Below, in pieces: positions 23,287 to 59,593 of a stretch of 64,000 nt of DNA (positions are counted from its first letter, which is position 1; each line of letters begins with the position of its first letter). The DNA is from Comamonas terrigena NBRC 13299. Its GTDB lineage: Bacteria; Pseudomonadota; Gammaproteobacteria; Burkholderiales; Burkholderiaceae_C. Under the pieces are notes generated by a model. The model had not been told where the DNA came from and made no database searches. It was given only the letters and a program-made list of their open reading frames with translations. The stretch is taken from positions 2,003,001-2,067,000 of the forward strand of contig NZ_AP019749.1 in the NCBI RefSeq assembly GCF_006740045.1. Direction: 5' to 3'. The position numbers and the translations under genes were made by a program.

Positions 23287-25077
23287 TCAGCGGGCGTCTG
23301 CGGTGGCGGGTGGCGGCCGGGTCGCAGAGGCCGGTGCGGCAGCGGATGCGGGGACGTCGTCGGTATCGTCACCGTCATCGTCCGGTGTGGCATTGGCGGC
23401 GTCGGTGCCGACTTCGCTGGCGTTGTCCTGGAGGCTGCGGGCATGGCGTGCCGCCCGCGCGGCGGCGCGCCGTGCCTGGCCGATTTCCAGCAGACACCAG
23501 GCCAGGTAGACAAAAGCCACCAGGGCCACGACGTGGAACACATCGTTGTAGGCCAGCACATTGGCCTCGCGCCGCACGGTGGCGGCCAGTTGGGCCGTGC
23601 CCTGGGCGGAGCGCAGCACGGGGTCGGTGATGGTGGGGGCCAGGGCCTGCTGCTGCAACTGCAGGCGTTGCGCCACCAGCGGGTTGGCCGGGTTGATCTG
23701 CTGCACCAGATCCACTGAGTAGGACTGTTCGCGGTAGGTCTGGTAGGTGCCCAGCAGCGAAGAGCCGATCAGTCCGCCCAGCGCCTGGGTCATGGAGATG
23801 GTCAGAATGGCCGTCAGCATGTGGCTGGGTCCGTTTTTCAGGCCCTGCACCACGCCCAGCAGCATCAGCGGGCCCATGAAGATGCCCGAGCCCACGGCCA
23901 GCAGGAGCTGGCTGAGATAGAAGTCGGCCGGGCGGTCCAGGCTGGTGCGGTGAAAGTCCAGGAAGGCGCCTGCCGCCAGCAGCACCAGGGCGGCCAGCAA
24001 CTGCTTGGCAGCGTTGTCCAGGCCGAAGGTGGCCGACGACAGCACAATGCCCAGCAGCGTGCCGAAGAAGATCACCACGAACAGCGGCTGCATCTGGTCG
24101 GGCGTCATGCCCAGCGTGCGCATCAGGCCCACCACGCCATAGCTTTGCTCGGTGGTCAGAAAGCGCAGCACGATGGCACCGATCACAAAGCGGATGGTGG
24201 CGCTTTGTGTGAACCAGCGGGTGTAGAGCAGCGGGTTGGGGCGGTGGTGTTCCAGATAGAGGCCGGCAAAGAGCAGGACGATGGCACCGCACAGCAGCCA
24301 GGCCAGCTCGGGCGCATTGAACCACCAGCGGGTGGTGCCTTGCACCAGCACGGCCACCAGCAGGCCCACGCCGTGAATCAGCAGTGCCATGCTCAGAAAA
24401 TCGCGCTTGCCGAAGACCTGGATGTGCACCCCCGCCGGCAGCTTGAGCAGCACCACGGCGGCAAACGACAGCAGCGCCAGACCGGCTTCCAGCATGTACA
24501 GGTTGTGCCACTGGCCGTGGTTGAGCAGACTGGGCGAGAGCATCCAGGCCAGGGGCGTGGCCAGCTGGCTCACGCCCACGCCCAGCACCAGCAGCTTGAG
24601 CACATAGGTGCGCGGCAGCGCCTGCAGCATGTACAGCGTGCCCAGTGAGGTGCAGGCCGCTGCCGCCAGGCCGCTGGCACCGCGCAGCCAGAGCAGGCTT
24701 TGCGGGCTGCCCAGCAGCAGGTGCAGCACGCACAGCAGGGCGTACAGGCCCAGGCCGATCTCGGCAAACAGGCGCATGCCGTACTGCTGGCGGAATTTGT
24801 AGACCAGCATGTTGGCGGTCACATTGAAGGTGACGTAGGCACCGGACAGCCAGGCGGCCTCGCTGGGTGTGAGCCCCATCTGCCCCTGGATGGTGGGCAG
24901 GTTGGCGGTGAACAAGGCATTGCCCAGGCCCCCGGTCAGCCCCACCAGCACGGCCACCAGGGCGTAGCAGACTCGCTCCCATGGCGCATGCCAGGGCATG
25001 GCGGGCGAACCGGGCAGGGCCGGTTTTTCGTGCTCCTCCCAGTCGGGGGGACGGCGCAGGTAGACGGTTTCGGTCAT
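23287..25077 (-). CDS. DHA2/EmrB-like MFS multidrug efflux transporter
   Basis: A 596-residue, roughly 14-helix major facilitator protein of the EmrB/DHA2 kind. The first helices include GGLGNALFTANLPTIQGQMGLTPSEAAWL, matching the typical motif before loop A. A large extracytoplasmic segment lies near 460-520 and a charged Asp/Ala-rich cytoplasmic tail follows 540 (DDDGDDTDD). It exports hydrophobic compounds with the adaptor and NodT protein encoded downstream. Its start overlaps the tetR stop by four bases (ATGA) and its stop touches the adaptor gene. Confidence 0.92.
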   Translation of the reverse strand: MTETVYLRRPPDWEEHEKPALPGSPAMPWHAPWERVCYALVAVLVGLTGGLGNALFTANLPTIQGQMGLTPSEAAWLSGAYVTFNVTANMLVYKFRQQYGMRLFAEIGLGLYALLCVLHLLLGSPQSLLWLRGASGLAAAACTSLGTLYMLQALPRTYVLKLLVLGVGVSQLATPLAWMLSPSLLNHGQWHNLYMLEAGLALLSFAAVVLLKLPAGVHIQVFGKRDFLSMALLIHGVGLLVAVLVQGTTRWWFNAPELAWLLCGAIVLLFAGLYLEHHRPNPLLYTRWFTQSATIRFVIGAIVLRFLTTEQSYGVVGLMRTLGMTPDQMQPLFVVIFFGTLLGIVLSSATFGLDNAAKQLLAALVLLAAGAFLDFHRTSLDRPADFYLSQLLLAVGSGIFMGPLMLLGVVQGLKNGPSHMLTAILTISMTQALGGLIGSSLLGTYQTYREQSYSVDLVQQINPANPLVAQRLQLQQQALAPTITDPVLRSAQGTAQLAATVRREANVLAYNDVFHVVALVAFVYLAWCLLEIGQARRAAARAARHARSLQDNASEVGTDAANATPDDDGDDTDDVPASAAAPASATRPPPATADAR

Positions 25078-25709
25078 GCGGCAGAAACGGCTGAAGCGGC
25101 AGAATCCACCGAAGCGGCCGTTGACGCGGCAGAGGCGGCCGCGGTGTCGGCATCCGGCTGCAGGCCGCGGCGCACAATGCCCAGCGCCTGGCGGGCCAGG
25201 CGGCGGCGTTCGGCGTCGGTGTTGCCCCGCAATGCTGCCCCCAGCATGCTGGACAGCAGGGAAATGTCCTGTGCCTGGATATCGGCGCGGATCAGACCGC
25301 TTTGCTTGCCGCGTTCCAGGGCCGGGCCGAACGCTGACCAGACACGCTGGCGCAGGGCGTTGACGCGCGGGTCGTCCAGCTTGGCGGTGCGCCAGTAATC
25401 CGACAGCGCGGGCGAACCCACGATGCGGGCGGACAGGTATTCCAGCAGGGCGAAGAAGGCGTCCGGTCGGTCCTTCAGCCGATCGGCCTGGTCATGCAGG
25501 CGCTGGGCCGAACGTTCCATCAGGGCCAGCAAGATGGCGTGGCGATCGGGGAACTGGCGGTACAGCGTGGCGCGGCCCACACCGGCCTGTTCCACCACCA
25601 GTTCCAGCGGAGCATTCACGCCGTGTTGGGTGAACACGGTGTCCGCAGCATCCAGCAACTGGGCGCGGCGGGTGGCGGCATCGGGGCGTTTGGTGGGGCA
25701 GGAGGTCAT
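25074..25709 (-). CDS. TetR family regulator of the efflux operon
   Basis: A 211-residue TetR protein with HTH at about residues 13-58 (RRAQLLDAADTVFTQHGVNAPLELVVEQAGVGRATLYRQF), a ligand-binding C-terminal domain, and an odd low-complexity Ala/Ser tail (last ~25 residues). It is the first gene of the efflux operon. A palindrome at 25723-25738, immediately upstream of the start, is the likely operator, so it probably represses itself and the pump until an inducer binds. Confidence 0.92.
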   Translation of the reverse strand: MTSCPTKRPDAATRRAQLLDAADTVFTQHGVNAPLELVVEQAGVGRATLYRQFPDRHAILLALMERSAQRLHDQADRLKDRPDAFFALLEYLSARIVGSPALSDYWRTAKLDDPRVNALRQRVWSAFGPALERGKQSGLIRADIQAQDISLLSSMLGAALRGNTDAERRRLARQALGIVRRGLQPDADTAAASAASTAASVDSAASAVSAA

Positions 25710-25738: not shown

Positions 25739-25823
25739 TTTTGTTTTAGCGCCTGAGCAGCCATGGCGCGAAGCGGGTTATTGCCGGACCTGCCTGGTCC
25801 GAGGTGGATCTGCCCAGGGTGGT

Positions 25824-25863
25824 GGGCTACTGGGCTACTGGGCTACAGGGCTACAGGGCTACC
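25824..25863. repeat. Five tandem copies of an 8-bp unit GGGCTACN
   Basis: GGGCTACT twice, GGGCTACA twice and GGGCTACC once, head to tail. They sit in the ~380-bp gene-free gap (25710-26093) between tetR and the chemosensory kinase. No terminator or gene is evident elsewhere in the gap. The array is too short and unspaced for CRISPR. Confidence 0.85.
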
Positions 25864-26093
25864 GGGGCCAGTGCGGCCAGCGCGCCACAGCGGCGCAGAA
25901 AGTCGCCGCAGCGGTTGCTGCGCGGGCACCGTGGGTCCTGCCGGAGCGCCGCCGAATCACTCCTGCAGCTGCTGCAGTTCCGTGCGTCCAGGGCGTGCCA
26001 CCAGTCGGCACCCGTGCGTGCGAGTCGGATGGGGCCGGGGTAGGGCGCGGTCAGCACACGCTGCACCGCGTGCAGATGCAGTGCAGCAGTGGC

Positions 26094-30800
<4,707 letters not shown>

Positions 30801-57964: not shown

Positions 57965-58816
57965 TCAGGCGTACTCCACCGGGGTCAGCATGGTCTTGAT
58001 CTTGTTGGCCAACTGGGCCACGGCCAGGGCTGCCGGGCAGCCAGGCATGCTGTGCAGCAGCAACTGGCGGCGCATCACCGATTCACGCACGGCCTTGTCG
58101 GCGGGAATGTCGCCCATGTGGATCAGGCGCATGGGGTTGCCGGATTCCGTGCTGACAAAGCGGTTGAGCACCTGTTGCAGCTGGCCGGTGATGGCGCGGC
58201 CGTCACCGGGGCGTGCGGCTTGGTTGATCACCAGGCGCATGTTGTGGCGCTTTTGCTGGGTGGTCAGCACCTTGATGGCGGCGTAGGCATCGGTCAACGA
58301 GGTGGGTTCGGGCGTGGCCACGATCAGCACTTCGGAGGCCAGCGACACGGAGAACAGCACCACGTCGGAAATGCCGGCGCCGGTGTCGAGCAGCACCACG
58401 TCGTAGCGGGGCGCCAGTGTGTCGATCACATGCATCAGCTGGTTGCGGATTTCCGGGGTCAGGCGGGAATATTCCACCATGCCGGAGCCAGCCAGCAGCA
58501 CCGAGAAGCCACCGGGCGCGGTGATCACCGCTTCGTCCAGCGTGGCCTTGCCGGTGAACACATCGTGCAGCGTGACCTTGGGGTAGAGGTTCAGCACCAC
58601 GTCCAGATTGGCCAGACCGAGGTCGGCATCCAGCACCAGCACGCGCAGGCCGTGGCGGGTGAGGGCTGCCGCCAGGTTGGCGGAGACAAAGGTTTTCCCG
58701 ACGCCACCCTTGCCACTGGTGATGGCAATGATGTGCGCACGCGAACCACGCGAAGAAGGTACATGCGTGGACTGGGCAGTGGCTAACGGGGAAGGGGGGG
58801 GCAGCACGTCGCTCAT
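57965..58816 (-). CDS. FlhG/MinD-like P-loop ATPase
   Basis: A 283-residue deviant-Walker ATPase: IIAITSGKGGVGKTFVSANLA, switch regions DADLGLANLDVVL and VVLLDTGAGISDVVLFS. Proteins like this (FlhG/FleN/YlxH) set flagellar number or place polar machinery. No flhF, flagellar or min genes are in the window, so FlhG versus another MinD-like role is open. ATG 58816 lies 10 bases after the stop of the frameshifted DGC, indicating an operon. The longer frame to 58888 overlaps the DGC. Confidence 0.82.
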   Translation of the reverse strand: MSDVLPPPSPLATAQSTHVPSSRGSRAHIIAITSGKGGVGKTFVSANLAAALTRHGLRVLVLDADLGLANLDVVLNLYPKVTLHDVFTGKATLDEAVITAPGGFSVLLAGSGMVEYSRLTPEIRNQLMHVIDTLAPRYDVVLLDTGAGISDVVLFSVSLASEVLIVATPEPTSLTDAYAAIKVLTTQQKRHNMRLVINQAARPGDGRAITGQLQQVLNRFVSTESGNPMRLIHMGDIPADKAVRESVMRRQLLLHSMPGCPAALAVAQLANKIKTMLTPVEYA

Positions 58817-58826
58817 CTTATTGCTT

Positions 58827-59593
58827 TCAGTTGACGCTGCCGGCAGGCTCATCCACGGCGTTCCACGCCGCGGCATCTTCGGAAACATCCGCCCAGGTGG
58901 ACGGCATGTGGGTCAAAGGCCCAAATAGTAAGCTTTTTTCTTCTGCAGAAACGGTACTGTCCGGTTGTTCTTCGATATGCACGCAGTTGCGACCGCTACT
59001 TTTGGAGCGGTAGAGCTGTTGGTCCGCACGCTCCAGCCACAGTTTGCGGGTGCTGCGGATCCATTGGAGCGCGAAGGCGCCGCCGACGCTCACAGTCACC
59101 TGCAGCTCCTGGGTGGGGGAAATGGGCACGCGCACGGCTTCGACCGCACGGCGGATGCGCTCGGCCACCGATTTGCCGAATGCAGCATGGCAGGCTGGCA
59201 GGCTGGCAGGACGATGGCGAATTCCTCGCCACCAAAGCGCACCAGGGTGTCCATGGGGCGCACACTGTCGGCCAGCACGCGGCTCACGGCCTGCAGCACC
59301 TGGTCGCCAGCCACGTGGCCATGGGCGTCGTTGATGTGTTTGAAGTGGTCGATGTCCAGCATCAGCAGCAGGGCTGCTTCGCCCGAACGGGCCACACGGT
59401 CTAGTTCACAGTCGATGACCGTGAAAAGCTGGCGGCGGTTGGACAGACCGGTGAGTGGATCTTTGAGCGACAGCTCGCACAGACCGTCAATGAGGGCCTG
59501 CAGATAGCGAGCAGGCTCAGCGTCTGCAGGCAGCTGGCCGGCACCTACCAGTGCGCGCGCAGCTTCCAGTTGCAGATCCTGCAGGGACACCAT
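58827..59593 (-). pseudogene. Diguanylate cyclase interrupted by an 8-bp tandem-repeat frameshift
   Basis: A GGDEF protein split over two frames. From ATG 59593 the frame gives LKDPLTGLSNRRQLF, DIDHFKHIND, inhibition site RPMD and GGEEFAIVLPAC, then breaks at 59186-59209. The remainder (VAERIRRAVEAVRV, LQVTVSVGGAFA, RADQQLYRSKSSGRN) continues in another frame to 58827. The break sits on two perfect plus one partial copy of CTGCCAGC; removing one 8-bp copy restores a continuous ORF through GGEEFAIVLPACHAAFGKSV. It may be phase-variable, a mutation, or an assembly error. Between sulP (55 bases) and flhG-like. Confidence 0.8.
59186..59209. repeat. 8-bp tandem repeat at the DGC frameshift
   Basis: On the plus strand CATGGCAG-GCTGGCAG-GCTGGCAG: two perfect and one partial copies of an 8-mer within the GGDEF coding region. 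Gain or loss of one copy shifts the frame by two. Confidence 0.9.

Follow-up and report, generated by a model that had tools for sequence, protein, structure and literature searches.

Short tandem duplications within bacterial genes are described as potentially reversible loss-of-function mutations, with an expected reversion of about 1e-5 or less for insertions of up to 9 bp (PMC4022640). The duplications reported for pneumococcal capsule genes (cap8E, tts and the type 3 locus; Waite et al. 2001, 2003, cited in PMC4022640) are the closest precedent for the locus described here, in that a short duplication within the reading frame acts as a knockout that could in principle be lost again. The titles of those studies, as cited there, report observed phase variation, whereas the diguanylate cyclase gene of this study was found with one tract length only. 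Phase variation through simple sequence repeats, as reviewed in PMC11868660, is alike in relying on a coding-region unit that is not divisible by three, but the tract studied here has fewer than three units, is not conserved and comes with no demonstrated hypermutability or reversion. According to the same review, switching has to occur both ways above a certain minimum rate, which by precedent means detectable without selection; classic methods detect about 1 variant in 1e5 colonies, and close to that minimum it is difficult to distinguish evolved loci from chance tracts. The c-di-GMP phosphodiesterases PdcB and PdcC of C. difficile (PMC9286219, PMC11868660) resemble the outcome that had been proposed for our locus, a heritable on/off state of a c-di-GMP enzyme; these are switched by promoter inversion, whereas slippage within the coding region was proposed for the cyclase. 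A slippage-switched diguanylate cyclase was not recognised among the literature matches listed, which is no proof of its absence in print.

The cyclase gene lies on the minus strand of a 64,000-nucleotide stretch of the Comamonas terrigena NBRC 13299 genome, the whole of which is referred to here as the window, and is split between two reading frames. The N-terminal frame runs from an ATG at 59593 to a stop at 59096 (59096 to 59593, minus strand) and encodes 165 aa, consisting of 132 native residues that include the RPMD and GGEEF motifs, followed by 33 out-of-frame residues; it covers positions 3-96 of the 161 positions of the Pfam GGDEF profile. The C-terminal part lies in another frame of the same strand (58827 to 59187, first GTG at 59168), ends at 58827 and covers profile positions 99-160. 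Its upper boundary is approximate because the repeat that separates the two parts is read in both frames. This repeat, at 59188-59210, is an 8-bp direct tandem array to which no strand is assigned, TGGCAGGC x 2.9 with 100% matches, reading CTGCCAGC on the coding strand. A preliminary description of this DNA had reported the array, which is indeed present, at 59186-59209, coordinates that are off by one or two bases.

The excess of one 8-base unit at the array shifts the frame just after GGEEF, within the GGDEF domain, so that the window copy has no complete domain with a GG(D/E)EF motif in a single frame and is without roughly the final 40% of the GGDEF profile. Since the shift removes the C-terminal part of the domain, the cyclase has very probably lost its activity in the sequenced clone, and the C-terminal part would not be expected to be active alone.

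The intact form of the protein was found by searching the N-terminal part against 5.8 billion predicted proteins. The best match, P0001, is a protein of 252 aa that represents 20 clustered sequences from 39 contigs. Its first 132 residues are identical to one frame of the window gene and its last 124 to the other; these add up to more than 252 since both frames read through the repeat. The window gene measures 767 bases against the 759 needed to encode P0001, and the difference of exactly 8 is one unit. Every other residue is equal in this protein-level comparison (P0001 is known as a protein), so the window copy carries one extra unit and no damage beyond the single indel. These results bear out the preliminary description in two respects, namely that the frame of a GGDEF cyclase breaks precisely on a tandem repeat of 8 bp, and that the removal of one unit yields an uninterrupted frame. 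P0001 is listed without source records, as are also proteins counted as the window's own; its sequence identity suggests that it comes from the same species as the window gene. A second protein, P0002 (ENA, on a separately sourced contig of 2207 bases), is identical to residues 1-156 of P0001 and intact across the break site. After residue 156 it continues as an unrelated C-terminal stretch that looks ABC-transporter-like by eye, and it is probably a chimeric assembly.

P0001 is a single-domain GGDEF protein (TIGR00254, 157.2 bits against a cut-off of 37.4) with a GGEEF motif and, five residues before it, RPMD, which we take from its motif to be the I-site. Its closest sequence relative among solved structures is 3ign, and WspR and PleD also match. 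P0001 aligns with these single-domain cyclases over the whole domain, including GGEEF and RPMD, whereas the window copy is without the C-terminal part. Membership of the cyclase in the SiaD family was rejected, as its score of 162.4 bits falls below the cut-off of 290. When the C-terminal fragment was used as query, 12 of 40 candidates were hits at E 1e-30, with identities of 76% at most. This gave no sign of a separate fragment from the species itself, a weak result in that full-length proteins lay outside the length range of the search and such a fragment may sit in the P0001 cluster.

Relatives were compared at the same site. At E 1e-30 the gene had a match in 41 of the 53 genus genomes, the own genome included, and the 12 without one were left out, giving 40 orthologues from all the other genomes with a match (39 from a set of 44 rows, in which 2 rows are the own locus and 3 repeat a genome, and the 40th from genome G065). 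The frame is intact in all 40, with at least 123 residues from GGEEF on compared with 45 in the window. None of the 40 carries two full units at the site: over the 75 bases that start at GGEEF, matches at period 8 extend for no more than 7 bases in any orthologue, compared with 15 bases in the window gene. The nearest species (G032 and G008, with 77% and 76% DNA identity, respectively) and P0001 all read ACHAAFGKSVAER. Four orthologues outside the genus, from named records (L011, L012, L013 and L018), are likewise intact and without the array. Comamonas suwonensis (L010) and G034, one of the genus genomes, have the same sequence over 600 bases of this gene, from which the genus compared is probably Comamonas as GTDB defines it. 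The preliminary description had also considered that relatives might share the same fixed and decaying frameshift, and this is excluded among the 40 genus genomes examined.

The gene downstream of the cyclase (57965 to 58816, minus strand) is an intact open frame for a FleN/FlhG-like P-loop ATPase. Its ATG at 58816 lies 10 bases after the cyclase stop, a spacing that had been given correctly before. The translation contains the Walker A motif KGGVGK and, amongst the MinD/ParA ATPases, is closest to FleN/FlhG; within solved structures, FleN (5j1j, E 2.5e-51) ranks ahead of MinD (1hyq, E 4.3e-27). Amongst the best 25 of 28 NCBIfam models, none reached its cut-off for this protein. The N-terminal stretch for FlhF, DQAxxLR, is not known to occur in every relative; inspection of residues 1-40 by eye did not reveal it, and the gene is therefore termed FlhG-like rather than FlhG. 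The FlhF gene of this genome is located elsewhere (G000:C1:453453-454523). An FlhG gene usually follows flhF, and the product of the open frame after flhF here (region G000:C1:452000-454600, L162) has no KGGxGK motif and may be a degenerate relative of FlhG. The cyclase-FlhG pair itself sits away from this flhF locus.

An FlhG-like gene was found downstream of the cyclase in 40 of 40 genus orthologues, and at 10 of 80 contig loci matching the cyclase, these ten being the ten best matches to P0001 and including Rhodoferax, Oryzisolibacter, Rhizobacter, Thiobacillus and Hydrogenophilales records. The pairing of a single-domain GGDEF cyclase gene with a FleN/FlhG-like ATPase gene immediately downstream (57965-59593 in the window) is conserved across the 40 genomes examined from the genus and extends to other Betaproteobacteria (loci L009-L015, L017, L018, L020, L089-L117, L119-L133 and L165). 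In the window, the broken frame ends translation about 280 bases before the FlhG-like start; with ribosomes stopping earlier, it is possible that translational coupling is lost and FlhG-like expression reduced.

We consider it likely that one of the many cyclases has been inactivated in this strain by a short tandem duplication of recent origin, an ordinary loss-of-function mutation. The first gene of the conserved pair would have gained an extra 8-bp unit, with replication slippage as the probable cause, shifting the frame and removing the end of the domain as described above. Back-mutation would be rare and unprogrammed, although the allele might revert on rare occasions. This reading is supported by the 40 intact genus orthologues without two full units, by the open frames of the flanking FlhG-like and SulP-like genes together with 51 other stop-free GGDEF matches, and by the intact, otherwise identical protein on other contigs, which fits a strain mutation at least as well as a switch. 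It is weakened by the frequency of period-8 arrays considered below, which leaves room for a slippage-prone genome, and by the intact allele being known as a protein, P0001, without listed sources.

The genome has 53 Pfam GGDEF matches, made up of the two halves of this gene and 51 others, none of which has an internal stop. With about 50 other GGDEF domains remaining, the effect of the mutation on the cell is probably small. In Pseudoalteromonas lipolytica, which has more than 40 cyclase genes, a dgcB deletion mutant is described as being like the wild type (PMC8919034). As found, the knockout of one of about 50 GGDEF genes in one genome carries little weight in itself. It does serve as a warning against reading every frame break that falls on a short repeat as a phase switch.

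The main rival to a duplication is an artefact of sequencing, assembly or culture mixture, by which the extra unit would be absent from the strain or present in only part of the culture. The extra unit was seen in this assembly only, and the otherwise identical proteins on other contigs are intact, as an artefact would predict. We nevertheless regard it as unlikely, given that in this single-contig genome neither the flanking frames nor any of the 51 other GGDEF matches contains a stop. Additionally, an in-register gain of 8 bp is atypical of the usual homopolymer error, and a tract of 23 bp is spanned by any read. A TAA in a ParA paralogue, taken up as a possible sign of poor assembly, was discarded, since the start codon follows shortly after it and the reading frame itself is uninterrupted.

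A more distant rival is the one put forward in the preliminary description, an evolved phase-variation switch in which slippage of the 8-bp unit reversibly toggles the cyclase, changing c-di-GMP and perhaps FlhG output. The gene does carry a tandem repeat at the break whose unit is not a multiple of three, so that a change of one unit alters the frame, both intact and broken versions of the same protein exist, and c-di-GMP enzymes are phase-variable elsewhere, as with pdcB and pdcC of C. difficile by promoter inversion (PMC11868660). The number of such arrays also speaks for it. Counting only perfect arrays of period 8 with 2.8 copies or more, there was one in ten simulated sequences of 464 kb (third-order Markov), one in the 400-kb sample on which the genome count is based, and two in the window, the latter being the cyclase array and one that was reported as two rows (25823 and 25840). 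Period-8 arrays are commoner here than composition predicts, which indicates that slippage or duplication makes such arrays in this genome more often than expected; the cyclase array is short and not unique.

A hypermutable tract of a phase-variable gene should be above chance and kept in the lineage. The array exceeds the expectation from composition, but it has 2.9 units and is absent from the site in all 40 genus orthologues. The exact 23-bp string occurs in the own genome and in one other of 299 family genomes, where no GG(D/E)EF motif was present in the six longest frames at the locus. A second tract length was not seen in DNA. With 51 other GGDEF matches in the genome and a review that requires unselected reversion both ways and cautions about chance tracts (PMC11868660), the proposed switch was not sustained, and we judge it highly improbable. 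Its widest form would have the cyclase of the cyclase-FlhG cassette switched in this species by gain and loss of the 8-bp unit, with c-di-GMP and, through coupling, FlhG dosage (and thereby flagellar number) changing together between swimming and attached states; from the sequence, this appears a very long shot. If both tract lengths were to be found in one culture, the locus would represent a coding-sequence slippage switch in a c-di-GMP synthase.

Synthesis of the full protein by ribosomal frameshifting in the overlap (59405-59096), where both frames are open (the C-terminal frame for 192 codons from 59405), is scarcely credible and was rejected, given that the N-terminal frame has a single X XXY YYZ heptamer, at 59122, which lies downstream of the break in the wrong register, and that the relatives are intact and need no such event.

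Other repeats were observed elsewhere in the window. A second 8-bp tandem array, TGGGCTAC x 5.5 with 94% matches (25823-25866), apparently occupies the gap that separates a TetR-like gene (25074-25709) from a CheA-like gene (26094-30800), the names of both genes coming from inspection by eye. The large CheA-like gene contains a perfect hexamer array, TCGGTG x 7.7 (29098-29143), that is read in frame as TDTDTD..., and the gain or loss of a hexamer unit there would preserve the frame.
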